A stretch of DNA of 64,000 bases from Eubacteriales bacterium (GTDB taxonomy: Bacteria; Bacillota; Clostridia; Lachnospirales; Lachnospiraceae): contig JAUNHC010000027.1 in the NCBI GenBank assembly GCA_030524175.1, positions 1 through 64,000 of the forward strand. The letters are read 5' to 3'. Position numbers and translations under genes: made by a program. Below are positions 11,887 through 63,247 of the stretch, piece by piece. A model generated the notes under the pieces. That model was not told the origin of the DNA, made no database searches, and saw only the letters and a list, made by a program, of their open reading frames with translations. Each line of letters begins with the position of its first letter. Position 1 is the first letter of the stretch.

Positions 11887-11888
11887 TT

Positions 11889-13375: not shown

Positions 13376-13386
13376 ACTTTTCTCAT

Positions 13387-14472: not shown

Positions 14473-14501
14473 ATAATAGCATACAATCTCTAGTTTTCCA
14501 A
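14473..14501 (-). promoter_or_regulatory. Likely trxB promoter
   Basis: On the minus strand TTGGAA and TATTAT are separated by 17 bases. Confidence 0.55.
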
Positions 14502-14540
14502 TAAGATAGTAAAAACAGGTACACGCCGAAAGGATATCCT

Positions 14541-34058: not shown

Positions 34059-34601
34059 ATGGCTAAATGGGTATGTAATGTATGTGGTTATGTTCATGAG
34101 GGAGATGCTGCACCGGAGGTTTGTCCTATTTGTAAGGCTCCTGCTGAGAAGTTTACGAAACAGGAATCTGAAATGTCTTGGGCTGCTGAGCATGTTGTAG
34201 GGGTTGCCAAGGGTGTAAGTGAAGATATTCTCGCTGACTTGAGAGCTAACTTTGAAGGTGAGTGTTCTGAGGTTGGTATGTATCTGGCAATGTCAAGAGT
34301 TGCACATAGAGAAGGATATCCGGAAATCGGTTTATACTGGGAGAAGGCTGCTCATGAAGAGGCTGAACATGCTGCTAAGTTTGCAGAGCTTCTGGGCGAG
34401 GTAGTGACAGACAGCACTAAGAAGAATCTGGAAATGCGTGTAGCTGCAGAGAACGGCGCTACTGCAGGTAAGTTTGATCTTGCTAAACGTGCGAAAGAAG
34501 CTAATCTGGATGCGATCCATGATACAGTTCATGAGATGGCTAAGGATGAAGCCCGCCATGGTAAGGCTTTCGCAGGACTTCTGAAGAGATATTTCGGTTA
34601 A
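34059..34601 (+). CDS. Reverse rubrerythrin, copy 2
   Basis: Product is 180 aa with the same rubredoxin plus diiron layout as copy 1. Changes from copy 1 are E16D, T17A, Y99H and E172A. The DNA differs at many third codon positions, so the copies are old or divergently maintained and are not an assembly repeat. It has its own promoter, operator and terminator. Confidence 0.95.
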
Positions 34602-45751: not shown

Positions 45752-46294
45752 ATGGCTAAATGGGTATGTAATGTATGCGGTTATGTTCACGAAGGAGACA
45801 GCGCACCGGAGGTATGTCCGATCTGTAAGGCTCCTGCTGATAAATTCACGAAGCAGGCAGGGGAAATGTCCTGGGCTGCTGAGCATGTAATAGGGATTGC
45901 TAAAGGTGTAAGCGAAGATATCATTGCAGATTTAAGAGCAAACTTCGAAGGTGAGTGCTCTGAAGTTGGTATGTATCTGGCAATGTCAAGAGTTGCCCAC
46001 AGAGAAGGCTATCCTGAAATCGGATTATACTGGGAGAAAGCAGCTTATGAAGAGGCAGAGCACGCTTCTAAGTTTGCAGAGCTGTTAGGGGAAGTGGTTA
46101 CTGACAGCACCAAGAAGAACCTGGAGATGCGTGTGGCTGCTGAGAACGGTGCAACCGCAGGTAAATTCGACCTTGCGAAACGTGCTAAAGAAGCTAACCT
46201 GGATGCGATCCATGACACAGTTCACGAAATGGCTAGAGACGAAGCCCGTCACGGAAAAGCTTTCGAAGGTCTTCTGAAGAGATACTTCGGCTAA
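45752..46294 (+). CDS. Reverse rubrerythrin, copy 3
   Basis: Product is 180 aa with the same C6/C9/C22/C25 rubredoxin site and diiron motifs as copies 1 and 2. It differs from copy 1 at about ten positions, mainly in residues 16-57. It lies 11 kb from the other two, between unrelated clusters, but keeps the same promoter and operator. Confidence 0.95.
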
Positions 46295-47998: not shown

Positions 47999-48797
47999 GG
48001 TGTCTAAGCTTTTTCACATCAGCATCGGCATTCTCCGCCATTATGACAAAATCGGGCTTCTGAAACCGGAATATACAGATGCAGACACGGGCTACCGCTA
48101 TTACAGCACCCGCCAGTTTGAATGCCTTAATACCATCCGGTATCTCAGAGCCCTTGATATGCCTCTGGAAGAAATCTCCCTGTTCCTGAACAACCGGGAT
48201 TTAGACAGCATTCAGGCTCTCTTGCTGAACCAAAAAGAAAAAGTGGCTCAACGGCAGCTGGAATTATCCATCATCCAGCATAAAATCGAAAACCGCCTGA
48301 GCCAACTTTCTGATGCGTCAATCTCTGAATTTGATATTATAAAAGAAGAGGCAAAACCCGGACGCCGTCTGGCTGCCCTGAAGAAAAAGCTCACTCCGAA
48401 GAGCTATCTTGACCTGGAATTTTCCATCCGTGAACTTGAACAGGAGGAGGAAAACACTGTGACCTTCCTTGGAAAGGTAGGTGTTGGAATCTCCTGTGAT
48501 TCTCTGCTGAAGGGACAGTATCAGCCTTACGAAATTGTATTCATCATCCTGGATGAAGAGGACACTTTCAAAGGAAATACCATTTATCTGCCTCCGGAAA
48601 CATGTGTCACTGTAAGATTTCAGGGCGGTCATGAACAGGCCTTTGGGTATTACGGCAGACTGATGGAATATATCAAGAAAAATGGATATGAAATATCCGG
48701 TTTCTCAAAGGAAATTACCATGATCGATTACGGGCTGACCAACGATGTATCAAAGTTTGTGACGGAAATACAGATTCCGGTCAGCAAAAGCTTGTAA
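47967..48797 (+). CDS. MerR family transcriptional regulator with GyrI-like effector domain
   Basis: Product is 276 aa. An amino-terminal MerR helix-turn-helix (GEVSKLFHISIGILRHYDKIGLLKP) and a dimerisation helix precede a carboxy-terminal GyrI-like ligand domain (about residues 120-276), as in BmrR. It probably activates the MATE gene and itself in response to a toxic ligand. The start MEKNELFLIGEV follows GAGGG inside the MATE gene. Confidence 0.9.
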   Translation: MEKNELFLIGEVSKLFHISIGILRHYDKIGLLKPEYTDADTGYRYYSTRQFECLNTIRYLRALDMPLEEISLFLNNRDLDSIQALLLNQKEKVAQRQLELSIIQHKIENRLSQLSDASISEFDIIKEEAKPGRRLAALKKKLTPKSYLDLEFSIRELEQEEENTVTFLGKVGVGISCDSLLKGQYQPYEIVFIILDEEDTFKGNTIYLPPETCVTVRFQGGHEQAFGYYGRLMEYIKKNGYEISGFSKEITMIDYGLTNDVSKFVTEIQIPVSKSL

Positions 48798-48823
48798 CAG
48801 TTCAGGCAAGTCTGAACTGTTAC
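48794..48823. terminator. Hairpin at the MerR gene stop
   Basis: GTAACAGTTCAG and CTGAACTGTTAC form a perfect 12-bp stem that includes the stop codon. It has no plus-strand T tract, and separates this operon from the convergent corrinoid gene. Confidence 0.6.
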
Positions 48824-48851
48824 AATGGATTGTCTTGTCCCTTTACTTAGA

Positions 48852-49490
48852 TTACGCCTCCGCCAGCTTTTTAGCCAGAGTCGCTGCGCTTGCGGCATCC
48901 TCAGAATATCCGTCTGCTCCGATTTCATCGGCAAACTCCTGGGTAATAGGCGCGCCTCCTACCATTACCTTTATATCACTTCTGAAATCTGCCATGTTGA
49001 GGGCTGCCACCGTATCCTTCAGCGACGGCATTGTAGTTGTCAAAAGTGCAGAAAGTGCAATAATCTTGGTATCCTCATTTTCTTTGTAACACTCTATAAT
49101 TTTCTCTGCAGGAACATCAACCCCAAGGTCAATGACTTCAAAACCAGCACTTTCTATCATCATGGCAACCAGATTTTTGCCAATGTCATGAAGGTCTCCC
49201 GCCACAGTAGCTATAATAAGCTTGCCCATTGCTCCCGTTGCGCCTGTAGCAAGATAGGGTTTCAGAACTTCCACGCCCTTTTTCATGGCACGTGCTGCCA
49301 CAAGCATTTCCGGTACAAAAATCTCATTGTTCTTAAATCTGTCACCCACAACCGCCATGGCGTCAATCATACCTTCATTCAGAATGGCAGTTGGCTCACA
49401 TCCCTCGTCCAGGGCTTCCTGTACTGCCTTTGCCACAAGCTTGGATTTTCCTTTTCCAACTAAATCTGCAATTTCCGCAATTTTAGACAT
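48852..49490 (-). CDS. Corrinoid (cobalamin-binding) methyl carrier protein
   Basis: Product is 212 aa. A helical cap (about 1-85) is followed by a Rossmann B12-binding domain. The lower-ligand motif is D99-x-H101-x-x-G104 (DLHDIG), with SALLTTTM and GGAPIT further on. It carries the methyl group between the substrate methyltransferase and the methyl-THF enzyme. It is the last gene of the second sugar cluster. Confidence 0.95.
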   Translation of the reverse strand: MSKIAEIADLVGKGKSKLVAKAVQEALDEGCEPTAILNEGMIDAMAVVGDRFKNNEIFVPEMLVAARAMKKGVEVLKPYLATGATGAMGKLIIATVAGDLHDIGKNLVAMMIESAGFEVIDLGVDVPAEKIIECYKENEDTKIIALSALLTTTMPSLKDTVAALNMADFRSDIKVMVGGAPITQEFADEIGADGYSEDAASAATLAKKLAEA

Positions 49491-49508
49491 TATATGTCCC
49501 TCCCTTTA

Positions 49509-50315
49509 TTATTTATTAACAGGGCCTATCAGCCCTTCTCTGTAAGCACCTATGTATTCCATGCAATAATCATCCAGCCCCATAAGTGCCTCTGTTGCAT
49601 AAATGATCCCTAACAAGTCACGATTTGTAGGGTCCAGTATAGCACTGTCCAGCCCGGCCTTCATTGCCAGAACCGTAAATCCAATATTAATAAGCTTACG
49701 GACAGGAAGGTTAAATGAGATATTGCTCACCGCAGCCGTAATATGAATAGACGGATACTGCTCCCGTATGGTACTGATCACTTCCTCATTCATGGCAATA
49801 CCATCTTCAGATGTACACAACATTTCTACCAGAGGATCAATATGCATACGGCTTGGAGAAATCCCATACTCCTTAGCCTTTTCCATAAGATTTCCAAATA
49901 CCTTCAGCCTGTCTTGGGCACATTTAGGTATCCCGGTGTCATCTGACAAAAGACAGATAACCTCCCATTTTGTGTCCGCGATCAATGGAAAAATCTTGTC
50001 TGCCTTATCTCCTTCCATAGATACGGAATTTATCAACCCAGGTCTTTTACAGTAACTAAAAACCTGTGCCAGCACATCTGCACTTGGGCTGTCCACAGAA
50101 ATAGGCACATCTGTCACTTCCTGGATACAGTCGATCATCCACTTTAATGTTTCTGCCTCCACAGCCTCTTCTACAGAAGCACAGCAGTCAATAAAAGCAG
50201 CTCCTGCTTCCGCCTGGATTTTGGCACGCTGTTTAATAAACTCTGCATCACGGTCTGCTATCGCCTTGGCTACTGCCGGGATCGAACCGTTAATTTTTTC
50301 ACCGATAATAATCAT
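49509..50315 (-). CDS. Methyltetrahydrofolate:corrinoid methyltransferase
   Basis: Product is 268 aa, a DHPS-like TIM barrel (IIIGEKINGSIPAVAKAI, PISVDSPSADVL, GLINSVSMEGDKAD, SNISFNLPVRKLIN). Relatives such as MtgA and AcsE move methyl groups between a corrinoid protein and tetrahydrofolate. It lies 18 bases before the corrinoid carrier gene. In an acetogen-like host this would feed methyl groups into the folate pool. Confidence 0.92.
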   Translation of the reverse strand: MIIIGEKINGSIPAVAKAIADRDAEFIKQRAKIQAEAGAAFIDCCASVEEAVEAETLKWMIDCIQEVTDVPISVDSPSADVLAQVFSYCKRPGLINSVSMEGDKADKIFPLIADTKWEVICLLSDDTGIPKCAQDRLKVFGNLMEKAKEYGISPSRMHIDPLVEMLCTSEDGIAMNEEVISTIREQYPSIHITAAVSNISFNLPVRKLINIGFTVLAMKAGLDSAILDPTNRDLLGIIYATEALMGLDDYCMEYIGAYREGLIGPVNK

Positions 50316-50360
50316 TCTGTTTTCTCCCTGTATCGTTCCGTTTTTATATCTTGGTACCTG

Positions 50361-50687
50361 TCAGTCAAGATGATAAATTTCCTTCATTCCCGACCAGAAC
50401 TCCCCCTCTTCACGGTCGTCCAGCGGCTGCATAAGGGGCTTCACCAGGCTCCACCAATGCTGGGTTGCCGGATCGGCAGCCATTTTCTCCATGTCGGCCT
50501 CAAAATCGTCACCATCGTACTCATAGTAAGCAAACATATAGTCGCCCCGCTGATAAATGCTGTAATTTTTAAGATGGCATTCCTTGATCATTTCATTGAC
50601 ACCCGGCAGAGGGTTGGCATGATATCTTTTATATTCCTCCAGACCCTCGGGCTTGATTTTTATCATTTCTCCAAATCTTCTGACCAT
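50361..50687 (-). CDS. L-rhamnose mutarotase-like protein (RhaM/DUF718)
   Basis: Product is 108 aa. The fold family is the dimeric ferredoxin-like RhaM: MVRRFGEMIKIKPEGLEEYKRYH, NYSIYQRGDYMFAYYEYDGDDFEADM and QHWWSLVKPLMQPL follow the E. coli RhaM pattern, including the active-site His region. RhaM interconverts alpha and beta L-rhamnopyranose. Placement between the methyltransferase genes suggests the imported sugar is rhamnose or a relative. It is somewhat divergent, so substrate is inferred. Confidence 0.82.
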   Translation of the reverse strand: MVRRFGEMIKIKPEGLEEYKRYHANPLPGVNEMIKECHLKNYSIYQRGDYMFAYYEYDGDDFEADMEKMAADPATQHWWSLVKPLMQPLDDREEGEFWSGMKEIYHLD

Positions 50688-50705
50688 CTTTCTCCCTCTT
50701 TCCTG

Positions 50706-51755
50706 TCAATCATATATTTTCTGGGCTTCATCGAACAATGCCTTGATGTTCTTCGGCGGCACGTCATTCTGGATGGCCTCATGGCTGGGTGACACAATAA
50801 GTCCTGTGGGGAAATAAGAGCGAAGTTCTTTTACCTTATCCTTAACCATCTCCGGTGTTCCGTTCACAAGAAGGTCCTGGGTATCCACGCCTCCGCAGAA
50901 TGAAACCTGTCCTTCAAATTTTGCCTTAAGGTTATCCGGCTGCATACCTGCTGCCAGTGCCTGAATGGGATGGACAGCGTCCACACCTGCCTCGATCAGC
51001 AGCGGAATAGCATCCACAATGGAACCGCAGGAATGATAAATCACTTTAACCCCATAGCTGTGAGCAATATCAATAAGCTTCTTTGCACCAGGGATCACAA
51101 ATTCCTGGATCAATGCCGGGCTGATCATCAAACCTCTCTGGCTTCCCATATCATCGCCAATAAGAATAGCCTGAACCTTACCCTTGGTAGCTTCAAGAAA
51201 AATTCTAAGGGCTTTTTCATAGAACTCAACAATCTTATCATCTACTGCATGGACCATCTCCGGTTCTGCCACCATATTCATAAGGCAGGTTTGCATTCCG
51301 AAGGCAGCACATACGTCCTGGAAGTGGCAGGCCCACACCATACCGATGACAACCTTATCCTCCGGCGCTTCCTCCACAAGACGTCTGCATTCCTCAGGGT
51401 CAATATAAAGCTCCGGGTCCGGCCACGGAAAATTCACCGCCTCAATATCCTCAACATCCTCACATTCCGCAAAGCATCCGTCTGCTGTCAGTGTCCGGTG
51501 TTCCGTATCAACATTGCTTCCGTTCATATACCAGTCAAAGGCAGCATACAAGGCAGAGCATGTAGGTGCTTTATAAGGTACTTCAACTGCATAGAAATCA
51601 TCGCCGCAGGCTACTTTTAACTCATTAAAGGTGTTTACCCCATAAAATTCACATAATCCCGGAATTGCTGTGGGCGTAGGCATACCCATCCAGCACGCCG
51701 GCCTGTCTACCGGTTTCCTCTCAATCGTCGCATAAAAACGTTCTTTACTGTTCAT
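50706..51755 (-). CDS. UroD-family corrinoid methyltransferase (MT1-like)
   Basis: Product is 349 aa of the uroporphyrinogen decarboxylase superfamily, in the MtaA/MtbA/CmuA-like branch. A probable zinc site is formed by H and C of YHSCGSIVDAI (about residues 265-267) and C of SFCGGVD (about 300). With the corrinoid carrier and methyl-THF enzyme next to it, it is the likely substrate demethylase that puts the methyl group onto cobalt. The methyl donor is not known. It lies 20 bases after the permease gene. Confidence 0.88.
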   Translation of the reverse strand: MNSKERFYATIERKPVDRPACWMGMPTPTAIPGLCEFYGVNTFNELKVACGDDFYAVEVPYKAPTCSALYAAFDWYMNGSNVDTEHRTLTADGCFAECEDVEDIEAVNFPWPDPELYIDPEECRRLVEEAPEDKVVIGMVWACHFQDVCAAFGMQTCLMNMVAEPEMVHAVDDKIVEFYEKALRIFLEATKGKVQAILIGDDMGSQRGLMISPALIQEFVIPGAKKLIDIAHSYGVKVIYHSCGSIVDAIPLLIEAGVDAVHPIQALAAGMQPDNLKAKFEGQVSFCGGVDTQDLLVNGTPEMVKDKVKELRSYFPTGLIVSPSHEAIQNDVPPKNIKALFDEAQKIYD

Positions 51756-51775
51756 CTTTCATTCTCCTCCTTCTA

Positions 51776-52726
51776 TCATGCCTGGCTGCGTTTCTGGATA
51801 CTGTTGATAATAACCGCCAGGAAAATTACAAGACCTTTAATTACACTCTGCATGTAAGCACTTACACCTAAAAGCACCATTCCGTTTGCCAGGATACCTA
51901 CGAAAAGAAGACCAATGATCGTCCCTCCCAGTTTACCTTCGCCGCCCATCATGCTTGTACCGCCGATAATAGCGCCTGCGATGGTATCCATCTCCCATGC
52001 ATTGGCACAGGTGGGGTCGCCGGAACGTACCTTGGCAGTCAGAAGAACACCTGCAATACCGCAAAGTCCGCCGGACAATACGAATACCAAGGTTTTCACT
52101 TTCTCAATATTAATACCTGACAGTCTCGCCGATTCCTGATTACTTCCCACTGCATAAATGGAACGGCCAAAAGCAGTATATTTCATAATGTACATAAATA
52201 CTGCATATAAAACGATCATATAAATAACAAGGTAAGGTATAGGACCTATGGAACCGGAGGCAATGACACCAAATCCGTCCGGAAGTCCTGCCACAGGGCG
52301 TCCGTTTGTCATAGTCTGAGCCATACCACGGATCGCTGTCATCAACGCTAATGTCACCAGAAATGAATGAAGCTTAAGCTTTGCCGTCACACCGCCTGTG
52401 ATCAGTCCGAAGAATGCCCCGGCAGCAATGGCCACTATGATCGCCACTATGACGGGAAGCCCCTTATTCATGATCATGGCGCAGGTGACAGAACAAAAGG
52501 CAACAATGGAGCCTACGCTCAAATCTATATTTCCGCTGATGATGATCATAGTCATACCGATCGCTACCACAGACTGAATAGAAATCTGCTTGATAATAGT
52601 GATCAGGTTTGTAGGGGTGAGAAACTTATCACTGGCAATAGCCAGCACAATGCACATTAATACCAGAAACAAGTACATGATGTACTTCATCAAAAAATTC
52701 TTTAAGTCAAAGGATTTCTTTTCCAC
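51776..52726 (-). CDS. Sugar ABC transporter permease, RbsC type
   Basis: Product is 316 aa with eight to ten membrane segments. GNIDLSVGSIVAFCSV and GGTSMMGGEGKLGGTIIG are hallmarks of ribose/xylose/rhamnose-type permeases. It pairs with the RbsA-like ATPase 14 bases upstream. Confidence 0.94.
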   Translation of the reverse strand: MEKKSFDLKNFLMKYIMYLFLVLMCIVLAIASDKFLTPTNLITIIKQISIQSVVAIGMTMIIISGNIDLSVGSIVAFCSVTCAMIMNKGLPVIVAIIVAIAAGAFFGLITGGVTAKLKLHSFLVTLALMTAIRGMAQTMTNGRPVAGLPDGFGVIASGSIGPIPYLVIYMIVLYAVFMYIMKYTAFGRSIYAVGSNQESARLSGINIEKVKTLVFVLSGGLCGIAGVLLTAKVRSGDPTCANAWEMDTIAGAIIGGTSMMGGEGKLGGTIIGLLFVGILANGMVLLGVSAYMQSVIKGLVIFLAVIINSIQKRSQA

Positions 52727-52740
52727 TTCTATACCTCCAA

Positions 52741-54246
52741 TTAAACAGCTTTCTGGCTGGTCGCATAATCCAGCAGAATATCCTGTGTCAAGTCTTTATT
52801 TTCCAGCTGTCCGGTAATCTTCCCTGCTGCAAAAACAACGATGTTATTTGCCACCTGCAGAACTTCAGGCAACTCTGATGAGATCATTATTATGCCGATC
52901 CCCTGACGGGCCAGTTCATTGATCAATGCATATATCTGATTCTTTGAGCCTACGTCAATTCCCCTTGTAGGTTCATCCATAATAAGAATCTTCGGCTCCA
53001 TGGCAAGCCATTTGGCAATAACCACCTTTTGCTGGTTTCCGCCGCTTAAAGCCTTCGCCTTCTGGTTTCCGTCACGGCATTTGATGCTCAGGGATTTGAT
53101 ATATTCGTTTGTCAGTGTGATCTCTTTGCTTAGATCAAGGGACAATCCCTTTTTCAGGCGGTCGAGAATAGTCATTCCCACATTGGTATGAAGGTCCATG
53201 TTAAGTATCAGCCCTTCCTCCTTCCGGTCCTCTGTGATAAAACCGATTCCTGCACGTTTTGCGTCCTGAGGAGATTTAATATGAACCTCTTCTCCCTCAA
53301 TAAATATCTCTCCCGAATCCCTGGGGTCCGCGCCGAACAGCGCTCTTACAAATTCTGTTCTGCCTGCACCTGCAAGCCCGGCGATTCCCAAGATTTCTCC
53401 TTTTCTCAGCTTGAGGCTGATGTTCTGGAATTTCTTTCCCGATGTAAAGTTCTTTACTTCCAGAAGGACATCCTCACTGTAACACTTCACCTGTTCGGTG
53501 ACTGTCATGTTTTTGCCCACCATGTTTTCGATGATCACCTGCTTTGGTGCGTCTTCAATATTCAAGGTTTTTATGTAATGGCCGTCCCTATACACAGAGA
53601 CACGGTCGCAGATAACAGGCAATTCCTCAAGCCTGTGGGAAACATAGATGATACTGATTCCCTTTGACTTTAAGTCTTTGATTATATTGAACATATTGTC
53701 AATTTCATTGTCAGACAGAGAGGCTGTAGGCTCATCCATGATCAATACTTTCAGTTTATTGGACAGAGCTTTGGCGATCTCTACCATCTGTTTCTGGGCC
53801 ACGCTTAATCTCCCTACAATCATATCAGGTTTGATGTTGGTTACACCCAGGCTGTCAAGGAGCTTCTGAGTCTCCCGGTTCATCCCCTTCCAGTCCACAC
53901 GGGGGACAGGGCCTAAGTTATTGTAAAGAAGCTTTCCCATAAATATGTTTTCCGCTACAGAAACTGTATTGATCAGCGAAAACTCCTGATATACAGCGCT
54001 GATCCCCAGCGCACGTGCATCAAACGTGGATTTGATCTCTACTTCCTTTCCGTCCAGATATACCTTGCCCTCATCGTTTGTATAAGCCCCTGTAATGATC
54101 TTTATCAGGGTACTTTTCCCTGCCCCGTTAGCTCCAACCAGGGCATGAACCTCACCTTCCCGCACTTCCAGCCGGGCGTCCTCAAGGGCTGTAATTCCGC
54201 CGAACCTTTTGGTGATTCCTTTTGCTTGTAATACAATATCCGGCAC
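52741..54246 (-). CDS. Sugar ABC transporter ATP-binding protein, RbsA type
   Basis: Product is 501 aa with two ABC domains. The first has GANGAGKST, LSVAQKQMVEIAKAL and LIMDEPTASLSD. The second has GLAGAGRTEFVRAL (degenerate Walker A), LSGGNQQKVVIAKWL and LIMDEPTRGIDVG. The start is taken as GTG at 54246 (PDIVLQAKGITKRFGG), eight bases after GGAGG. An ATG at 54285 lies in the loop of a hairpin and has no ribosome binding site. It energises the importer encoded around it. Confidence 0.93.
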   Translation of the reverse strand: MPDIVLQAKGITKRFGGITALEDARLEVREGEVHALVGANGAGKSTLIKIITGAYTNDEGKVYLDGKEVEIKSTFDARALGISAVYQEFSLINTVSVAENIFMGKLLYNNLGPVPRVDWKGMNRETQKLLDSLGVTNIKPDMIVGRLSVAQKQMVEIAKALSNKLKVLIMDEPTASLSDNEIDNMFNIIKDLKSKGISIIYVSHRLEELPVICDRVSVYRDGHYIKTLNIEDAPKQVIIENMVGKNMTVTEQVKCYSEDVLLEVKNFTSGKKFQNISLKLRKGEILGIAGLAGAGRTEFVRALFGADPRDSGEIFIEGEEVHIKSPQDAKRAGIGFITEDRKEEGLILNMDLHTNVGMTILDRLKKGLSLDLSKEITLTNEYIKSLSIKCRDGNQKAKALSGGNQQKVVIAKWLAMEPKILIMDEPTRGIDVGSKNQIYALINELARQGIGIIMISSELPEVLQVANNIVVFAAGKITGQLENKDLTQDILLDYATSQKAV

Positions 54247-54271
54247 GTGCACTTCCTCCTTTTCAAAACAA

Positions 54272-54295
54272 AGGGTGTTCTCCATAGAACACCCT
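54272..54295 (-). terminator. Attenuating hairpin between binding protein and ATPase genes
   Basis: AGGGTGTTCT and AGAACACCCT form a perfect 10-bp stem with a 4-nt loop, followed on the minus strand by TTTGTTTT. It should lower expression of the ATPase and later genes relative to the binding protein. Confidence 0.7.
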
Positions 54296-54334
54296 CAATC
54301 TTCCACTAATAATTATTGTTCTGCTTATGCAGGA

Positions 54335-55309
54335 TTAGCCGACCAGATCCTGATGCTCATCAATATATGTCTGTATCTCGTCCATATTATCTTTTGTATA
54401 GGTGTAGGTCGGAATCATGATCTCTTTTTCTACTTCTTCGCCTTTTACAGCCTTAACAGCGTTTTCAACTGCCTGGTATCCCATATCATATGGCATCTGA
54501 GTGGTGATCGCCTGAAGCGTGATGGAATCGCCCAGCATATCCTTTGCCAGTTCTACGGACATATCGGTTCCCATAAGAACGATATCTTTCTTTCCGGCGT
54601 TTTCAAGAGCTGCTGCACATCCCAAAAGTGAGGTCTGATTCCAGCACCAGATCACCTGTACATCAGGATTAGCTGTGAGGATCTGCTCTGTGATGTCAAG
54701 TCCTTCTTCCTGAAGCTCTGCATCCTGTTCGTTAACAATTTCTACTGTACCATCGTCTGTAAGCTCTTTGATAGCTTCTTTAAAACCATCGCATCTTGCA
54801 ATGCCGATTTCATAATTGCTGTCACCGATGATTGCCATTTTACAACCGTCCGGGAAATTCTCTTTGATATAATCAACCGCGTATTTACCTGTATTACCTC
54901 CAAGCTCTGAAGGTACAACGCCTACATGGCTTGTCACATCTGTATCTACTGTGGTATTCCAGGTTACCACAGGAATCTGTGCGTCCTTTGTTGCTGTCTC
55001 AACTGCTGCAATTGACGCGTCAACTGCCAGCGGAGAAATAACAAGTGCATCTACCTGCTGTGCCATAAAGGTTGCAACATTGTCGGATTCTTTGGAGATT
55101 TCGTTGTCGGATGAAACAATGGAGAAGCTGACACCCAGTTCCTTAGCCGCATCTTCCTGACCCTTGATCACTTCTGCAAACCATTCTCCGGAATTATTCA
55201 TGATCACAGAGCCGATTGTAATATCTTCTTCACCCTCTGCAAATACTGCTGCCGGAAAAGAACATACCATGGCCGCGCACAACAATACACTTACTAATTT
55301 TTTCTTCAT
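54335..55309 (-). CDS. Sugar-binding protein of the RbsB type
   Basis: Product is 324 aa. The signal peptide ends VFA before EGEED, and no lipobox cysteine is seen. The periplasmic-binding-protein type I domain has IGSVIMNNSGEWFAEVIKGQED, VDALVISPLAVDA and QVIWCWNQTSLLGCA. It delivers the sugar to the RbsA/RbsC importer. A -10-like TATAAT upstream (about 55358-55353) may give it a promoter of its own. Confidence 0.92.
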   Translation of the reverse strand: MKKKLVSVLLCAAMVCSFPAAVFAEGEEDITIGSVIMNNSGEWFAEVIKGQEDAAKELGVSFSIVSSDNEISKESDNVATFMAQQVDALVISPLAVDASIAAVETATKDAQIPVVTWNTTVDTDVTSHVGVVPSELGGNTGKYAVDYIKENFPDGCKMAIIGDSNYEIGIARCDGFKEAIKELTDDGTVEIVNEQDAELQEEGLDITEQILTANPDVQVIWCWNQTSLLGCAAALENAGKKDIVLMGTDMSVELAKDMLGDSITLQAITTQMPYDMGYQAVENAVKAVKGEEVEKEIMIPTYTYTKDNMDEIQTYIDEHQDLVG

Positions 55310-55362
55310 TTTCTACCTCCTGATTTTTTGATCACGTTTACTTGATGATTGTATTATAGAAA

Positions 55363-55401
55363 AAACCGATGAAAATATAAATTCAATATTTTCATCGGTT
55401 T
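55363..55401 (-). terminator. Terminator between rhamnosidase and sugar-binding protein genes
   Basis: AAACCGATGAAAATAT and ATATTTTCATCGGTTT form a perfect 16-bp stem with a 7-nt loop, followed on the minus strand by TTTTCT. It separates the hydrolase transcript from the importer operon. Confidence 0.8.
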
Positions 55402-55431
55402 GGTCTAATTTTTCATTTTTATGATTTAGAA

Positions 55432-58400
55432 TTATTTATTAGCAGTTAAAGTAAGTGTTGTCTTTCCGGTCATACCGTAGTCTGCCGGCTCTGTATCCTG
55501 TGTAAGCCAGAAAATCGGATCATACCCCCGGGCCACATTGCAAAGGCTGCTGGTTACCCGAACGGATATGGTATTTTCCCCGGAAACCACTGCTTTGGAA
55601 ATATCCGCTGTAGCTGTATCCATATTCACAGGCACCTTCTGGTCATTTACCATGATCATAGCCGTTCCATAATTAAAGCTGTCTGCCTTAAACACAACCT
55701 TTCCTGTTTCCGTATCAAAATCTTCCGGAATCGTAAAGGTTGTTGTGTAAGTGCCTACACCAGACACACTATCACCCACAGCCTCAAGCTCCTTCCATGG
55801 AACAAGCTCTGTCAGTTCGCCAAGCTCAATATCCGTATGAGCTGTCTCGTAAGTAACCTCTGTGGTAGTTACGCCGGTTTCTTCATTGTTTTCCGTGCGT
55901 TCCACTTTATCTCCGGGTGTATAAGAATCTACGGTAAGGTTCCATCCGGTCAGTTCCATTTCGCTGCTTTCATAAGTATTTTTCTCAGCTGCAGCCTCTT
56001 GTGCCGGGTCCAGAATATACATCTCCACCTCTCCCGGCTCCAGAGAAACATTCAAAATAGTTTTTCCGTCTTTACAGGACGCATCTGTAACCTTGCTTAC
56101 TTCTCCGGTCCATGTATCCAGAATATATGGCTGATAATTTCCTTCCACTGCGATCTGTCCGGAATACGCTTCCTCATCCTCATACATGTAATGATATACA
56201 TAAAGATAAGTGGCATCGTCAGCTTTTCTCATATTGGTCAGAAGTTTATGGTTGGATTCTACATTTTCCGCTCTGGGCGTAACTCCCAGCTCAACAAGTG
56301 CATCCATCGCTTCTTCACAGGAATCCACTGTTTTTACATTATCAAGAGCTTTCATCTCTTGCACAACTGCTGCCAGTTCATCGTCAAGCCCGTCATTGCA
56401 GCCAGTAGTAGAGGCAGCAATGGTATTTACTTTATCTACATTAGAATTGTTCGGATGTTCCACCACATTATTAACAAACAAAACCGGAAGTCCGCTTTGG
56501 GCTGCTTCTTGCAGCTTCTTTGCCGCATCCAGCAAAAGCTCATCTTCCATAATTACGACAGCTTTATAAGCAACACCGTCTGAATTGATCATGCCGTCCG
56601 ATACATCCACTTCATCATCCAAAAAAGTATAGGATGAGAAATAGTCATAAGTATATCCCTTATCCTGCAGGCCAAGATCTGTCCAGTAATATGCCCTGTC
56701 ATTATGAAGCGCATTGTTATAAACACCTGAACTGGAAACACTGGTCAAAAGATTATTCAGATAATAATCCGTGCGGAGCATGGCTATATCCACCTGGGGA
56801 ACTCCTTCCTCAAGCGCCTTCTGGATACGGCTTAAATGGGTATTTACATCAGGATAGTCAATGGAAGCCGGCTGACGCTTATTAAAACGTTCTGCTATCA
56901 GATTTGTCATACCCTCATATCCCGGCCATGACACAGAAGCATCCGGGCCATATTCAGACGAATAACCGTGGGTTACTGTTTTCTGGATTCCCGCTGCGTA
57001 CTGGGTATAAAAAATCTGACGGTAATATCCATTGTTCCACAAATAATTTGTGTTGATAGACGCTCCTGATTCTGAGGAGAGACGTTTATCGTAAACATGA
57101 GCAGCTCCTGTAAAGTTACGGTAAGAATCCACATCTGCCGCAAATTCAAAGGACTCTGTTTCCAAATAATCTACAGAAGATACTGTCTGGGAAACCTCAA
57201 AGGTTTTTCCATAAGAATTTTCTGCTCTGAGATACATCCCCTTTTCATTCAGCCAGTTATGGAGAATATCAAGACAGTTTTCCTGATACAGCTCTGTTTC
57301 TGTCTGGAAGAAATCATTCCTGAGATAATTTATATCAATTTCTTCTGTGTCTGTAAAATCATAGACATAAGTCAGATGCTGCCCCATTCCCTTTAAGGTA
57401 TCCGGTGTTTCACGGATCAGAAGCGGAATATATTTTTCGATATCATAGCCTCTGCGGTTCTTAAACTGTCCCAGCATGTCTGTACACCAAAGCTGTTTTG
57501 TGGAATTTTCTCCTTCAGTCATCAGTTCCAGAGAATCCATATACAGGGATGCTTCGTCTATTTCAGAAATCAATTCCATTACATCCTCTGTAAGGACATT
57601 CTCATCCCAGTAAGCCATCAAGGCGTTTGCGCCTGCCGGGTCGAAATAATTGATGGTATACCCATACCCGGTATTGGCCGCGGCATAGCGTTCACTGGTT
57701 CCATACTGATAGAAGGCAAAGAGTGCATAATCACTGTCATCCTCTGCCGTATAATCAATGCTGTAGCTGCCGTCCTCCTCTTGTGTTGCCAGATCCGTCA
57801 CTATCTTCATTGAATCTGTGTTTACTACTGTCTTTACACCTGGATCCGTAACCTCGCCGCTCTCCTCATCCACTGTTGCCGGAATACCCCAGTCTTCCAC
57901 CTTGGCAGCGATCACAGATACTAACATCTGTTTTGTGGCAGCTCCAGGAAGCGTGCACTGCGGAAGCTCTCCGCTGTAAGAAGTATTTTTTCCTTCTTCC
58001 CTTTTCAGGTTCACAGTCATATATCCAAGCTCCTGGGAAGCCTCCTGCTGGTCCGGCAATATCGTAGGAAGATTTGCCGTAGCCCAGTATGTCCCGCCTG
58101 TCATACTTACGCTCATTCCATACTTTTTACACTCTTCAATGATCACCTTGGTATCATGGATCCATTCCGGAGACCCCCATCCATAGGTTGCATCATCCAA
58201 AATCTCCGCCTCACTTGTGAGGGTTACAAATTCCACACCTCCGAAGCCATCCTCGTAGAGTTCTTTTACAGACTCCCGCAGCGTCTCATCTGTGTGGGAC
58301 CCCTCTGCCAGCCACCATCTCGCATACGGGCGGTTAGCCATCTCCGGCTCTGCAAATTTTGCTTCCATCGCCACTGCAAAATCATCCTCAGCGGCAAAAA

Positions 58401-58476
58401 CATTGACCGGCGCCGCCAGGGCCGTTATCCCCAGAGCCGCCGCAAGCATTTGTGCAAGAAGCTGTTTCCTTTTCAT
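55432..58476 (-). CDS. Secreted glycoside hydrolase, GH106 (alpha-L-rhamnosidase) type
   Basis: Product is 1014 aa with a signal peptide (cut after NVFA). The PYARWWLAEGSHTDETLRESVKELYEDGFGGVEF start of the catalytic part follows the GH106 pattern of a tryptophan-rich opening and GGVE. A carboxy-terminal jelly-roll module (about 915-1000, YTTTFTIPEDF...GTAMIMVNDQKV) resembles the sugar-binding-like domain of these enzymes. GH106 removes terminal alpha-L-rhamnose from plant glycans and glycosides. It has no membrane anchor or cell-wall sorting motif. The start follows AAGGAGGAACAGAAC. Family assignment is by pattern, not by search. Confidence 0.8.
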   Translation of the reverse strand: MKRKQLLAQMLAAALGITALAAPVNVFAAEDDFAVAMEAKFAEPEMANRPYARWWLAEGSHTDETLRESVKELYEDGFGGVEFVTLTSEAEILDDATYGWGSPEWIHDTKVIIEECKKYGMSVSMTGGTYWATANLPTILPDQQEASQELGYMTVNLKREEGKNTSYSGELPQCTLPGAATKQMLVSVIAAKVEDWGIPATVDEESGEVTDPGVKTVVNTDSMKIVTDLATQEEDGSYSIDYTAEDDSDYALFAFYQYGTSERYAAANTGYGYTINYFDPAGANALMAYWDENVLTEDVMELISEIDEASLYMDSLELMTEGENSTKQLWCTDMLGQFKNRRGYDIEKYIPLLIRETPDTLKGMGQHLTYVYDFTDTEEIDINYLRNDFFQTETELYQENCLDILHNWLNEKGMYLRAENSYGKTFEVSQTVSSVDYLETESFEFAADVDSYRNFTGAAHVYDKRLSSESGASINTNYLWNNGYYRQIFYTQYAAGIQKTVTHGYSSEYGPDASVSWPGYEGMTNLIAERFNKRQPASIDYPDVNTHLSRIQKALEEGVPQVDIAMLRTDYYLNNLLTSVSSSGVYNNALHNDRAYYWTDLGLQDKGYTYDYFSSYTFLDDEVDVSDGMINSDGVAYKAVVIMEDELLLDAAKKLQEAAQSGLPVLFVNNVVEHPNNSNVDKVNTIAASTTGCNDGLDDELAAVVQEMKALDNVKTVDSCEEAMDALVELGVTPRAENVESNHKLLTNMRKADDATYLYVYHYMYEDEEAYSGQIAVEGNYQPYILDTWTGEVSKVTDASCKDGKTILNVSLEPGEVEMYILDPAQEAAAEKNTYESSEMELTGWNLTVDSYTPGDKVERTENNEETGVTTTEVTYETAHTDIELGELTELVPWKELEAVGDSVSGVGTYTTTFTIPEDFDTETGKVVFKADSFNYGTAMIMVNDQKVPVNMDTATADISKAVVSGENTISVRVTSSLCNVARGYDPIFWLTQDTEPADYGMTGKTTLTLTANK

Positions 58477-58506
58477 GTTCTGTTCCTCCTTAACGTTTTT
58501 GTAAGA

Positions 58507-58709
58507 TGTCGGGGTCAAAAGGGAGCCGGGGCGGGTGCTGTCCTATCCAGACAGACTTGCGGAAGCACGCCTGAAAATCCAGTGCTTACGAAGACTTAGG
58601 CGTGAAGGCTCTCCTGAGCGTCTTAGTCGCAGTTAGTACTTAGTTGAAGGGAAGCGAGCGTCTGTCCGAAGAGGACAGCACCCGCCCCGGCTCCCTTTTG
58701 GCCCCGACA
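58507..58709. repeat. Large inverted repeat, 38-bp arms, upstream of the rhamnosidase gene
   Basis: Arms 58507-58544 and 58672-58709 match at 37 of 38 positions. A GACAGAC/GTCTGTC pair continues the stem inside, and a CACGCCT/AGGCGTG hairpin lies in the spacer. The first 24 bases from 58505 also occur, with one mismatch, at the tatD 3' end (18887-18910). It probably lies in the rhamnosidase mRNA leader. Frames reading through it are not genes. Confidence 0.88.
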
Positions 58710-58791: not shown

Positions 58792-58820
58792 TTGCGCTCA
58801 AAATGTATCTGATGTATAGT
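58792..58820 (+). promoter_or_regulatory. Promoter of the second regulator/kinase pair
   Basis: TTGCGC and TATAGT are separated by 17 bases, 37 bases before the regulator ATG. Confidence 0.55.
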
Positions 58821-58857
58821 GAGGACGGGGAAAACAAAGGCAGCGGGGAGGAATATC

Positions 58858-60369
58858 ATGAGAAAGATCAAAACTCTGTTGGTAGACGATGATTATCTTG
58901 TATTACAAGATCTTGAAAAAATGGTAGAATGGGATTCTGTGGGTTTTCAGATCATAGATACAGCAGCGAACGGAAAACGCGCCCTGGAAATCAGTCAAAA
59001 AAACATACCGGATCTAATCGTGTCAGACATCTCCATGCCGGTAATGGATGGTTTTGATTTTATAGAAGCATTAAAGGAGCTGAATCCCCGGGTCTATATT
59101 ATTTTTATTTCCTCTTATGCAAGCTTTGATTATGCCAGGCGTGCCCTGCAAAATCATATTCACAGCTATATCCTGAAAAATGAAATGACAGCGGAATCGC
59201 TTATAAAAGAATTACTCCAGGCAAAAAAGCTCATCCTGCAGAATGAATCTCTTCACAAAGAAGAAAACGAAGCAGAATTAAAGAAATATTTCGGAATTAA
59301 AAGCGGGCATCCTGCCTTGGATCAGGAACTTCTTCACCGGAGATTTGTTCTATTTTTTATAGCGTCACATATGCCCCTGCAAAAACTGAAGCTGCATTTT
59401 CAGGATTCTCCAGAAATAGGGAAACAGTTGTATAAAGAGTTCCAGCCGCTGATCAATGAAATATATCCTGACGCCTATGTATTTTCTCAGGAAGAATTTG
59501 TGATCGCCGCTATACCGTGGGAGTCACTGGGAAAACCATTTTCCTGCACCAGCGTTTCCATATCCTGCAGAAGCCTTCAAAGTAAATTACAAAAAACCCA
59601 GGAAGAAAATGTACAAATTTATACGATTCCGGAAAAGCTTTCCGTTCCTGACGGAAGAAACGCATTTTATCATTTATTGCCGTGGCTTCACTTTTTTAAT
59701 TCTTTTCCCTCATATGCAAAATGGGATATGTCTGCCTATATGGAAAAGGAGTTTTCCGGTATCCGGCAGAGTTTTCCCTATGACTGCCTGGAAAAATCTC
59801 TTGAGCATCCTGAGATTTTTGTAAAGGAATTAAAAGGCTACACAGCCGCACTGTTTAAGGCCATGGATGCAGACGGAATCTTCATGCTCTATCACAATCT
59901 GCTTCTTCAATTAGAGGAGCTGTCCGGACACATGGTCCCTATCAATGGAAGGAACCTGTTTACAAATGAAGAGGCCTTTACGGACTTTTTTGTAAGTGTT
60001 TACAAAGATATCCGGCAGCATCTTAGCAGAAAGGGACAAGCCGGATATGCGCCCTGGCTTACCGCGGCCATTAATTACATGAAAAATAATTACGCCAACA
60101 GCAGTATGACTGTAGAACAGATCGCAGAGACAGCAGGACTCAGCACAAGCAGGTTCAGCGTGCTCTTTCGACAGGAGACCGGCCAGACTGTTAATGATTA
60201 TCTGACAGAAATACGGATTTCCCAGGCTGTATTTCTTTTGGAAAACAGTAATTGTAAAATATACGAGATTGCAGATAAGGTGGGCTATAAGTCTGCCCAG
60301 TATTTCAGTCAGATATTCAGCCAGAAAACAGGTTATAAGCCTTTACATTTCCGCAAGAAAAAGAATTGA
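58858..60369 (+). CDS. Response regulator, YesN/AraC type
   Basis: Product is 503 aa. The receiver domain has D10-D12, D57 (SDISMPVMDG) and K107 (in ILKNEM), followed by a long middle region. A carboxy-terminal AraC helix-turn-helix pair (VEQIAETAGLSTSRFSVLFRQETGQTVNDYL, then EIADKVGYKSAQYFSQIF) completes it. It is divergent from the rhamnosidase/importer cluster and is its likely activator. The start follows GGGGAGG. Confidence 0.93.
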   Translation: MRKIKTLLVDDDYLVLQDLEKMVEWDSVGFQIIDTAANGKRALEISQKNIPDLIVSDISMPVMDGFDFIEALKELNPRVYIIFISSYASFDYARRALQNHIHSYILKNEMTAESLIKELLQAKKLILQNESLHKEENEAELKKYFGIKSGHPALDQELLHRRFVLFFIASHMPLQKLKLHFQDSPEIGKQLYKEFQPLINEIYPDAYVFSQEEFVIAAIPWESLGKPFSCTSVSISCRSLQSKLQKTQEENVQIYTIPEKLSVPDGRNAFYHLLPWLHFFNSFPSYAKWDMSAYMEKEFSGIRQSFPYDCLEKSLEHPEIFVKELKGYTAALFKAMDADGIFMLYHNLLLQLEELSGHMVPINGRNLFTNEEAFTDFFVSVYKDIRQHLSRKGQAGYAPWLTAAINYMKNNYANSSMTVEQIAETAGLSTSRFSVLFRQETGQTVNDYLTEIRISQAVFLLENSNCKIYEIADKVGYKSAQYFSQIFSQKTGYKPLHFRKKKN

Positions 60370-60389
60370 TCTCATCTGTAGGAGGCCAT

Positions 60390-62123
60390 ATGTTTAAAGC
60401 GCATTCAAAAATCGGCGGGAAAATATTCAAAAAATTTCTGCTCACCTATACCGTGATTTTCTGTATATTGTCAGCATTAATCCTGGGCGGCACCGGCATA
60501 CTTCTTTTATACAACACCAGTAAATCCATTTCATCGAAAATCGCGCTGATCACAGATGTATGGGATAATTTTGAGATTACACGACAGGAACAGATATACA
60601 CTCTTTTTTCCTCTGATGAGCTTGTCCGAAATCTGCAGGCCTGGTATCGTTCGCCTTCAAACCAAAACAAAGAACGGATCAATTTATGTCTGGCAAATTT
60701 TCAGACCTCTTTTTCGGGAATCCAATACTTGCTCATGGAAGATGACGAAGGAACTATATTCCATTCTCTGAACGGCTTCTCTCCCGAAATCCAGAGTGTT
60801 TTAAAAAACAGCCCCGGATATAAAAGTACACAGGAAAACGGAGGCTCCTATCTATCTCCGGTTGAAGCTGCCGAAAATCCCAATATGCCCGCGGCTTATT
60901 CTAACTATACCGACCGCCAGACCATATACGGACATACCGTTACTGTTTGCTTCTGCTATGATGCCCAAGGCTTGGTACGCGATATAAAAAGCGCCGGAGA
61001 GGGCCTGGATTCTGTAGAAATCTATAATACCTATGGGGAAAGGCTTTATGGAACACCGGGATCAGAAATAAAATCCTTTTCCGGTATAACGGAAACAGGA
61101 ACGGGCCTCTTTCACTGCCGGTTCACCAAAACAGGAATTTCTATGGTAAACGGAAGCCGTAATACTCTCGTGTATACCATGGGAACCATTACGTATTCTC
61201 ATTTGTTTACGAATTTTTTCCTGTTGTTTTTCTTCCTGCTGGGAATATATTTTGTCCCTATTTTATTTGCCCTGCTGTATATTATCCCTGCAAACGACAA
61301 AATGCTGGAGCCCATAAGCAATCTCAGCCAGCAGGTACAGTCCTTTTCTCTCGGCGCCGAACCGCCGCTGATCTGTGAATCGGACGATGAGGTTGGAGAA
61401 CTGAGCCATTCCTTTTACAATATGGCTATCAACATTAATCAGCAGTCCCGAAAGATTTCGGAAAAAGAAAGAGAAAAGGCTGAGACTTATTATAAACTTC
61501 TGACCACACAGATAGATCCTCATTTCATATATAATACTATGAATATCATAAATATCCTGGCAAGGCAGGGTGCCTATGAGGACATCATAAAGGTAAATAC
61601 TGCGCTGACCAGGGTTTTAAGAGAGCGGCTGAATACGCAGAACACCACATTTGAAGAGGTGAAACATGAAATTGACGCGCTGAAGCAATACCAGTTGATC
61701 ATGGATTACCGATACCACAGCCAGGTCATTGTGGAATATGATATCAACGAATCTGTTTCAGAGAAAAAAATACCGAAAAACATTCTTCAGCCATTACTGG
61801 AAAATGCCTATTATCATGGACTTGCCACTGATTCCGGAGAAATTAAAGGAAATATCGAAATTTTGATCTATCCATTAGAAGATGACCTGGTGATTGAAAT
61901 CAGCGACAGCGGTAAGGGATTTTCCGAAGAAAGGCTGAAGGAAATACGTGACAATCTTCTTCACGCCACACTTCATAAAGAAAAAGAAGCTCACATAGGC
62001 CTGGAAAATATTTATCGCCGTATTTCCTATCTTTACGGAGAAAACTTCTCTATGGACATTCAAAGTGAGCCGGGTTACGGCTCTTCTGTGGTATTAACGT
62101 TTCCATTGGACTTTGCCAATTGA
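60390..62123 (+). CDS. Sensor histidine kinase, YesM type
   Basis: Product is 577 aa. The first membrane segment is at about 17-40, then a sensor domain, and a second membrane segment at about 275-300. A HAMP-like linker is followed by His_kinase with the phospho-histidine at about 378 (TTQIDPHFIYNTMNIINIL), LLENAYYHG and SDSGKGFSEE. The start MFKAHSKIGG follows AGGAGG. The 3' end overlaps the convergent binding-protein gene by 49 bases. Confidence 0.92.
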   Translation: MFKAHSKIGGKIFKKFLLTYTVIFCILSALILGGTGILLLYNTSKSISSKIALITDVWDNFEITRQEQIYTLFSSDELVRNLQAWYRSPSNQNKERINLCLANFQTSFSGIQYLLMEDDEGTIFHSLNGFSPEIQSVLKNSPGYKSTQENGGSYLSPVEAAENPNMPAAYSNYTDRQTIYGHTVTVCFCYDAQGLVRDIKSAGEGLDSVEIYNTYGERLYGTPGSEIKSFSGITETGTGLFHCRFTKTGISMVNGSRNTLVYTMGTITYSHLFTNFFLLFFFLLGIYFVPILFALLYIIPANDKMLEPISNLSQQVQSFSLGAEPPLICESDDEVGELSHSFYNMAININQQSRKISEKEREKAETYYKLLTTQIDPHFIYNTMNIINILARQGAYEDIIKVNTALTRVLRERLNTQNTTFEEVKHEIDALKQYQLIMDYRYHSQVIVEYDINESVSEKKIPKNILQPLLENAYYHGLATDSGEIKGNIEILIYPLEDDLVIEISDSGKGFSEERLKEIRDNLLHATLHKEKEAHIGLENIYRRISYLYGENFSMDIQSEPGYGSSVVLTFPLDFAN

Positions 62124-63247
62124 AGCAGGCGGTTGTCGTTAATGATCTGCTGGAAGGATTCTTCATCCAATTTAGGATTATTCCATTTAAAAAGCATATC
62201 CCGTACAAAATCATCCGAAAAATACAAAAGGGAGCGGTCCTCTATCTTAGGGGAAAGCTCCCTTGCCTGTTCCTCGGAAGTGATGAGAATCCCCTCTACA
62301 TAATGGCTGGTACTTTTACTTTCCAGCGGACAGCCTTTCAATGTGTTGATCATTTTTATGGCAAGATAATAGGGGTCCATGGACAACTGCATAAGTCCAT
62401 AGCTGCTCTTCAGGATACCCGTCTGAAAGTCTTCTACAATCTTATCTGAAAAATCAAAGGCAACCAGGCTGATACGTTCCGTACTGCGCACGGCCTGAAT
62501 GGTTTTCAGCACCTGATTCGTGCCGCCTAATGTCTTAGTGCCCGCAAGAAAAAAACAGTCCAGGTCCGGATACGCCTGTATGATACTTTTTGTATTTTGT
62601 TCTATATCAGAGTAACTCCGCATGTTCCTGGCTTCTGCCACGATCTGCGCATCCGGATATTCCATAAGTGCTTTCTGAAATCCTACTTCACGCTGCCTGC
62701 ACGTATTGTCTGATTTTGATTCCGAAAGAAGAGCAAATCTACGGTATCCTTTCTCCAATACAGACTTTGCCAGCTCATATGCCCCCTCCTCCTCATTTTC
62801 ATATGTATTGCCAATATAATAGGGAGAGGCTTTACAAAATTCCTCTATGTCCTTATCTGTAATGCCCCTCATATAAATCCCCCAGTAAACCTCTGCTTCC
62901 TCGCACATCCGGCAGATGGCGGGCAGAACCCGGTCGGCAGTAGGGGCAAATAAAATGCCATCCACATCTTGCGCCAGCATGTCTTCCACATTGTAGATAG
63001 ACTGTTCATTTATAGTTCCGGAATACTTATTATCCGGTCTTACAAACTCCACATTAGCCAGCTTTTCCAAATGCTTCAGATTTTCATTCAGAATATGAAA
63101 AGAGGTATTATAATCCGATTCTAAAAATTCCAGGCCAATACGGATTGGCGGGGCCTCCCTGTCATCTGCGTGGATATCAGCCGGAAAAGCACAAATGCAT
63201 AAGCATAATAATAGAAAACATCTTATTAATAGTCCGCTTTTTCTCAT
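62075..63247 (-). CDS. Sugar-binding protein, possible sensor partner
   Basis: Product is 390 aa. A signal sequence (MRKSGLLIRCFLLLCLCICAF, cut near HA) precedes a type I periplasmic binding domain (VDGILFAPTADRVLPA, ALLSESKSDNTCRQREVGFQKAL, SLVAFDFSDKIVEDFQTG). About 50 extra residues at the carboxy end are uncommon. No permease is adjacent, and it shares its 3' end with a sensor kinase gene. It may present the sugar to that kinase rather than to a transporter. Confidence 0.85.
   Translation of the reverse strand: MRKSGLLIRCFLLLCLCICAFPADIHADDREAPPIRIGLEFLESDYNTSFHILNENLKHLEKLANVEFVRPDNKYSGTINEQSIYNVEDMLAQDVDGILFAPTADRVLPAICRMCEEAEVYWGIYMRGITDKDIEEFCKASPYYIGNTYENEEEGAYELAKSVLEKGYRRFALLSESKSDNTCRQREVGFQKALMEYPDAQIVAEARNMRSYSDIEQNTKSIIQAYPDLDCFFLAGTKTLGGTNQVLKTIQAVRSTERISLVAFDFSDKIVEDFQTGILKSSYGLMQLSMDPYYLAIKMINTLKGCPLESKSTSHYVEGILITSEEQARELSPKIEDRSLLYFSDDFVRDMLFKWNNPKLDEESFQQIINDNRLLQLAKSNGNVNTTEEP

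Follow-up and report, generated by a model that had tools for sequence, protein, structure and literature searches.

A probable corrinoid demethylase module within a monosaccharide-import operon of a Lachnospiraceae bacterium: O-methyl-L-fucose as a candidate substrate

Introduction

Contig JAUNHC010000027.1 of the genome assembly GCA_030524175.1 (Eubacteriales bacterium, family Lachnospiraceae) carries, within its positions 1 to 64,000, a cluster of eight genes in which a sugar importer, a mutarotase and the parts of a corrinoid-dependent methyl-transfer system stand together. The whole 64,000-nucleotide stretch was analysed and is called the window here. An earlier reading of its sequence (the original prediction) proposed that the cell imports an O-methylated deoxysugar, for example an O-methyl-rhamnose, and strips the methyl group onto tetrahydrofolate (H4F). 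We describe the genes of the cluster, their conservation among relatives and the sugar that the cluster may serve.

Results

All eight genes that had been listed as lying in one direction were found in the open reading frame (ORF) list and in Pfam and NCBIfam scans of the window, and all lie on the minus strand. In the order 5' to 3' they encode a GH106-type glycoside hydrolase (55432..58518), the sugar-binding protein of an RbsB-type importer (54335..55309; Peripla_BP_4, 149.5 bits), an RbsA-type importer ATPase with two ATP-binding cassette (ABC) domains (52741..54285; ABC_tran matched in two stretches), an RbsC-type permease (51776..52726; BPD_transp_2, 149.1 bits), a UroD-superfamily protein (50706..51755), a RhaM-family mutarotase (50361..50687), a methyl-H4F:corrinoid methyltransferase (methyltransferase II; 49509..50315) and a corrinoid carrier protein (48852..49490). 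The best NCBIfam matches of the RbsA-type protein were the xylose and ribose ABC ATPases, under their cut-offs. From the binding-protein gene to the carrier gene the intergenic gaps measure 49, 14, 20, 18, 45 and 18 bp, and a terminator-like hairpin with a 14-bp stem (48792..48825, minus strand) lies 3' of the carrier gene.

The UroD-superfamily protein is the proposed methyltransferase I, which would act as an O-methyl-sugar:corrinoid methyltransferase. It matches Pfam URO-D with 96.3 bits and the folds of MtaA and UroD, and has H241, C243 and C287 as putative metal ligands. Its scores fall under every curated NCBIfam cut-off listed, including that of the MtaA/CmuA family TIGR01463 (47.9 bits against a cut-off of 235.4), and neither the protein nor its profile matched a PDB sequence at E 0.01. 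Structures of CdmB (9RUI and others) probably postdate the structure library, and their absence from the fold matches means nothing. A role as the decarboxylase of the heme pathway was rejected because the gene stands together with those of the carrier and the methyl-H4F methyltransferase and because an HxC...C pattern is invariant. Methyltransferase II has a Pterin_bind domain and scores 335.7 bits against NCBIfam PRK07535 (cut-off 259); the carrier has the B12-binding (PF02310) and B12-binding_2 (PF02607) domains and lies below every curated cut-off listed.

By sequence, the components of an O-demethylase are all found: the UroD-type methyltransferase I, the B12-binding carrier and methyltransferase II at the locus, and a reductive activator in the genome. 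The original prediction had seen neither an activator nor a sugar isomerase in view; this holds for the locus, and elsewhere the genome encodes three activators as well as L-fucose isomerase (FucI) and L-rhamnose isomerase (RhaA), the two isomerases lying on one other contig (C64). Two acetyl-CoA synthase domains (CdhC) occur on contig C58, and the genome encodes the Wood-Ljungdahl pathway at least in part. With the three activator genes and these two domains, entry of methyl-H4F into acetogenesis is plausible. On contig C77 of the same genome (locus L158), a second methyltransferase II (80% identical to that of the window) and a second carrier (73%) stand with an activator and a UroD paralogue (28%), and this locus is a possible source of the activator for the system in the window.

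The hydrolase at the 5' end of the cluster belongs to GH106 by its Pfam score (Glyco_hydro_106, 57.2 bits, cut-off 29). A profile of 11 homologues scored 158.9 bits to 6q2f and 140.8 bits to 5mqm, both GH106-type structures. Its score against the NCBIfam BT4145 rhamnosidase, 87.9 bits, is far below the cut-off of 1300; alpha-L-rhamnosidase is a candidate activity. A signal peptide is likely by eye, and the true start is probably near 58476. A gap of 122 bp separates this gene from the binding-protein gene, a looser join than in the rest of the cluster. Because the gap holds a T-tailed hairpin with a 16-bp stem (55363..55401, minus strand) and a promoter-like site (55381-55353, minus strand; a sequence pattern), the GH106 gene may be its own transcription unit. 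The two signals are a hint only: hairpins in the region are no commoner than in shuffled sequence (9 against 9.1), and promoter-like sites are about equally frequent in shuffles.

Conservation of the gene set was followed in a scan of genome contigs, in which 193 stretches encode UroD relatives. The best 80 were kept and make, with the window, 81 loci, which are not independent of one another and have full flanks in only 46 cases. A mutarotase gene is present in 56 of the 81 loci and lies at most 340 bp from the UroD gene in 55 of these; the two share a strand in all 54 loci where the mutarotase is at most four genes away. An RbsA-type gene is found in 50 loci, a count that includes two loci (L145 and L151) matched at 25% only; 46 loci have both the mutarotase and the RbsA-type gene. 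Second methyltransferase, carrier and activator occur in 17, 20 and 15 loci, and at least one of the three in 32 of the 81. Since the importer differs between loci (the binding-protein type of the window occurs in 8 loci, the window included, and in many others the importer has two permeases and a different binding protein), the pairing of UroD protein and mutarotase is more constant than the importer type. The grouping is not a chance neighbourhood, and the conserved set supports the proposed coupling of sugar import to corrinoid O-demethylation onto H4F.

The closest named relative, Blautia schinkii DSM 10518 (L149), has a UroD protein 95% identical to that of the window. There the genes run in the order two binding proteins, RbsA, RbsC, UroD, mutarotase, second methyltransferase and carrier, with no GH106 gene; ahead of them come a kinase-type gene and one more gene, left unscanned. 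A GH106 gene of the window's type lies near UroD at one of the 81 loci, the window itself. Genome G204 has a GH106 homologue (65%), on a different contig from UroD. The gene cluster of the original prediction is confirmed, and its GH106 gene, with a 122-bp gap and an occurrence at one locus, is more loosely attached than the genes from binding protein to carrier, where the gaps are 14-49 bp.

Two further proteins recur at these loci. A 758-amino-acid protein (L049:16619-18895), with homologues in 21 of the 81 loci, has LacI DNA-binding, periplasmic-binding-type and extracellular solute-binding domains fused in one chain, an unusual regulator; wherever it is at most four genes from UroD, in 14 loci, it is encoded on the opposite strand. 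A protein of 404 amino acids (L099:4983-6197, minus strand), with homologues in 8 loci, is also encoded opposite to UroD and at most four genes away, and has no Pfam match at E 0.001.

The mutarotase of the window (minus strand) falls with L-fucose mutarotase and not with L-rhamnose mutarotase, by a wide margin, and its predicted activity is of the L-fucose type. It scores 106.1 bits, over nearly its full length, to the L-fucose mutarotase 7byu, against 27.5 bits to YiiL and 20 to 6hhn of the rhamnose type, and 44.7 bits against the L-rhamnose mutarotase family TIGR02625, whose cut-off is 99.6. A profile of 15 UroD-linked mutarotases gave 128.7 bits to 7byu against 45, 43, 29 and 28 to rhamnose-type mutarotases. 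As a control, the canonical L-rhamnose mutarotase on contig C54 gave the reverse, with 108.5, 106.6, 105.9 and 104.9 bits to the rhamnose types and 32.3 to the L-fucose mutarotase. A short match to the designed protein 7ong (50 and 44 bits), which outranks YiiL in these comparisons, was set aside.

FucI genes were searched for near UroD with the protein of a relative as query and were found within 10 kb in 8 of the 80 relatives (L081, L085, L096, L097, L098, L109, L112 and L127). The distance is 0.5 kb in L085, 1.2 kb in L112, 1.4 kb in L081 and 5.5 to 8 kb in the other five. On a quick tree the eight loci occupy six places, L096-L098 forming one group; 0.4-0.8 linkages would be expected by chance, if one copy per 3.3 or 1.8 Mb is assumed. 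With the protein of the window's own genome as query, RhaA was found near UroD in none of the 80 relatives (the source of the query, L155, served as positive control), and L-arabinose isomerase (AraA) likewise in none, in a search that had no positive control.

Neighbouring genes were labelled by Pfam for hand-picked proteins in batches of 10. GH29 fucosidase genes lie just upstream of UroD in four of the 80 relatives (L119, L130, L138 and L139; a fifth, weak match of 25% in L143 was left out of the count). In L135 the rhamnogalacturonan lyase RGL11 and a PcRGLX-like protein directly precede UroD, carrier and activator. GH106-like genes occur with GH42 in L133 and L152, and with GH78-like and GH2 enzymes in L143. 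An apiosidase-like enzyme is a neighbour in L120 and a sulfatase in L043, which is on the same contig as L075. Many of the scanned neighbours are unrelated, housekeeping or unlabelled (helicases, a tRNA synthetase, AAA ATPases).

The family was also surveyed as a panel of 397 genomes, the window's own included, of which 24 are UroD-positive (E 1e-70 or better). Co-occurrence in this panel discriminates less well between the sugars than physical linkage does. FucI, called at E 0.001 (115 of the 116 FucI genomes lie over the family cut-off), is present in 23 of the 24 UroD-positive genomes against 93 of the other 373. Among RhaA-positive genomes, UroD accompanies FucI in 19 of 64 and occurs without it in 1 of 47 (p 1e-4; the Fisher tests given here and below ignore phylogeny).

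Two more UroD paralogues of the same genome lie in operons with importer genes. One (L157, contig C26, about 5757-13439) combines RbsA and two further ORFs of permease size with a UroD paralogue of 32% identity and a second mutarotase that shares 52% identity with that of the window; it adjoins a divergent ORF of 764 amino acids and is perhaps another methyl-sugar demethylase operon. In the other (L156, contig C23, about 2700-15949), a UroD paralogue of 33% identity is flanked by RbsA/RbsC importers and accompanied by two alcohol dehydrogenases of the zinc type and by kinases of the FGGY, PfkB and ROK families; this operon looks like a pathway for a methylated sugar or polyol.

Beyond the cluster in the window, a divergent response regulator with an AraC-type end (58819..60369, plus strand) and a sensor histidine kinase (60366..62123, plus strand), both ORFs whose domains were read by eye, are its probable regulators; the pair showed no clustering with the kinase-type genes that adjoin the operon in relatives. 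A second sugar-binding-like protein (62075..63247, minus strand; Peripla_BP_4, 54.5 bits) is, from its position, a possible partner of the sensor. Three near-identical genes for 180-amino-acid proteins (32441-32983, 34059-34601 and 45752-46294), presumably rubredoxin/rubrerythrin-like, also occur in the window.

Discussion

That the module demethylates a methyl sugar of some kind appears highly probable, taking the three sugar readings together. Which sugar, then, would be demethylated? The leading candidate is a 6-deoxyhexose that is imported with an O-methyl group on it. Most likely this sugar is O-methyl-L-fucose, with the 2-O-methyl-L-fucose of the pectic rhamnogalacturonan II (RG-II) as one example, and O-methyl-rhamnose is less likely; for O-methyl-L-fucose we put the chances at about equal for and against. 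The substrate is probably a free O-methyl monosaccharide, given that RbsABC-type importers take up monosaccharides and that mutarotases work on reducing sugars in their free form. The RbsBAC-type system would import it, the mutarotase would supply the right anomer, the UroD protein would move the O-methyl group to the Co(I) of the carrier, and the second methyltransferase would hand the methyl group from the carrier to H4F. Genes elsewhere would encode the isomerase-based catabolism of the freed sugar, and methyl-H4F would feed acetogenesis through the Wood-Ljungdahl pathway. On chemical grounds, a methyl group on O2 would block the aldose-ketose isomerisation by FucI until removed, and for such a sugar demethylation would have to come first.

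According to excerpts of PMC12282258, 2-O-methyl-fucose occurs among the complex glycans of plant walls only in RG-II, and GH139 frees 2-O-methyl-L-fucose only once arabinose and rhamnose have been removed. This order of release, in which rhamnose comes off before GH139 acts, would agree with a rhamnosidase gene next to the operon.

In favour of O-methyl-L-fucose count the L-fucose type of the mutarotase and its close pairing with UroD across differing importers, the FucI genes that are linked to UroD in relatives and frequent in UroD-positive genomes, the GH29 genes upstream of UroD, the rhamnogalacturonan lyase, apiosidase-like, GH106-like and GH78-like genes at other loci, the activator genes at 15 loci, the acetyl-CoA synthase domains of the genome and the restriction of the plant sugar to RG-II. 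The genes, their conserved grouping, the subfamily of the mutarotase and the recurring FucI linkage are shown by the sequences; the substrate, the position of its methyl group, the source polymer and the order of the steps are inferred.

Several observations weigh against O-methyl-L-fucose. The same paper reports, in the part consulted, that GH29 enzymes are inactive on 2-O-methyl-fucose, which weakens any simple reading of the GH29 neighbours. The hydrolase of the window itself is of GH106, a rhamnosidase family. The mutarotase is not present in 25 of the 81 loci, and there is no FucI gene in the window or in the stretch of 72 of the 80 relatives (it is found in 6 of 46 among loci with full flanks). 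Where FucI is linked, six of the eight loci also carry FucU, which belongs to a separate family of mutarotases that serves fucose, and the UroD-linked mutarotase may for that reason serve another sugar; the arrangement suggests that the latter works on something different from plain L-fucose, perhaps on the methylated form. FucI also serves D-arabinose and accepts other sugars. RhaA is enriched as well, in 20 of the 24 UroD-positive genomes against 91 of the 373 others; among FucI-positive genomes UroD occurs in 19 of 64 with RhaA against 4 of 52 without it (p 0.004), and FucI-only and RhaA-only genomes are alike in UroD (4 of 52 and 1 of 47, p 0.37). Both isomerases may simply mark users of plant polysaccharides.

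Another O-methyl sugar, such as O-methyl-L-galactose, O-methyl-D-arabinose or the 2-O-methyl-D-xylose of RG-II, might be handled through FucI-type or other enzymes, which we regard as improbable. The plant and gut setting and the wider sugar range of FucI speak for it, and 2-O-methyl-xylose is likewise described as an RG-II sugar in excerpts of PMC10154630. Against it, the mutarotase is closest to the L-fucose enzyme and AraA was not found near UroD in any of the 80 relatives. In a search confined to the 24 UroD-positive genomes, no match to xylose isomerase exceeded the curated cut-off (weak matches under it occur in 6 of 23), a result that speaks mildly against 2-O-methyl-xylose.

Also unlikely is O-methyl-L-rhamnose freed by the GH106 enzyme, the substrate that the original prediction had drawn from the RhaM label. 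The GH106 affiliation of the hydrolase would suit it, as would the enrichment of RhaA and the GH106-like genes near UroD in L133, L143 and L152; GH106 homologues occur in 5 of 19 UroD-positive genomes against 5 of 280 others, if the genomes searched are taken to be G000-G298. This reading is weakened by the mutarotase, which is not of the L-rhamnose type, by the linkage of FucI (8 of 80 relatives) and not of RhaA (0 of 80) to UroD, and by the GH106 gene of the window, whose type is near UroD at that one locus and which is perhaps a separate unit.

A demethylase for methoxylated aromatics or small methyl compounds, with the sugar genes serving a glycoside, would agree with the substrates of the UroD-superfamily methyltransferases I characterised in the available part of PMC13222342 (methoxy-aromatics and haloalkanes), with the report there of cdmB in gut Blautia and Robinsoniella, and with the loci that have no mutarotase. 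This reading loses weight, and with it the methoxylated plant glycoside of the original prediction, since the genes most often found with UroD are those of a monosaccharide-type importer and of a monosaccharide mutarotase (50 and 56 of 81 loci); several neighbours are, in addition, sugar isomerases or polysaccharide enzymes. We consider it quite doubtful. A patchwork in which mutarotase, importer and demethylase are merely co-regulated and the substrate of the demethylase is unrelated to sugar is very improbable, since tight UroD-mutarotase pairs persist in 55 of 81 loci across differing importers, even though one clade of eight loci (L131, L136, L141, L144, L145, L148, L151 and L153) has UroD without mutarotase, FucI or an RbsC-type permease.

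A wider picture that takes O-methyl-L-fucose as the substrate can be drawn, and we would give it somewhat less than an even chance. Gut and rumen Clostridia, some of them acetogens, would use the methyl groups of RG-II by means of a UroD-type demethylase dedicated to 2-O-methyl-L-fucose, with the sugar passing to FucI and the methyl group to the Wood-Ljungdahl pathway; other RbsABC-type operons hold related UroD paralogues, two of them in this genome, which may treat other O-methyl sugars or polyols. Sugar O-demethylation would then be a broad and undescribed branch of methylotrophy. It would add a substrate class to the UroD-type methyltransferases I, explain how anaerobes could use methyl sugars that isomerases refuse, and tie pectin breakdown to acetogenesis. 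The proposal names a concrete substrate that can be tested, and the protein concerned has relatives in 193 stretches of the scanned genome collection.

Comparison with known systems

The kind of enzyme is known; the substrate class and the type of operon appear to be new. Some clades of the UroD superfamily have no assigned substrate in the portion of PMC13222342 consulted, and its main text, to the extent available, has no word beginning with "sugar". The open-access literature that pairs corrinoids or demethylation with methyl sugars, rhamnose, rhamnogalacturonan or fucose gave no title on sugar demethylation. Breakdown of RG-II by Bacteroides thetaiotaomicron with the GH139 2-O-methyl-fucosidase would, following excerpts of PMC12282258, release the proposed substrate; "demethyl" does not occur in the available main text of that paper.

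Gut acetogens have a four-protein O-demethylation system, as excerpts of PMC12915777 describe. The MtvB, OdmB and VdmB systems of acetogens and the chloromethane system CdmBCA share with the genes described here a UroD-type methyltransferase I, a separate carrier, a methyl-H4F methyltransferase and an activator. Unlike them, in a comparison by gene set and family cut-offs, the set in the window is embedded with a monosaccharide importer and a mutarotase, and its proposed substrate is a sugar. The methylcobamide:coenzyme M methyltransferase MtaA (4ay7, 4ay8) has 15-16% identity to the UroD protein of the window, which lies far below the MtaA cut-offs and stands in a bacterial three-part context. 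With the L-fucose mutarotase 7byu/7byw, finally, the mutarotase of the window shares the near full-length 106-bit match, and differs from it by its linkage to a demethylase.

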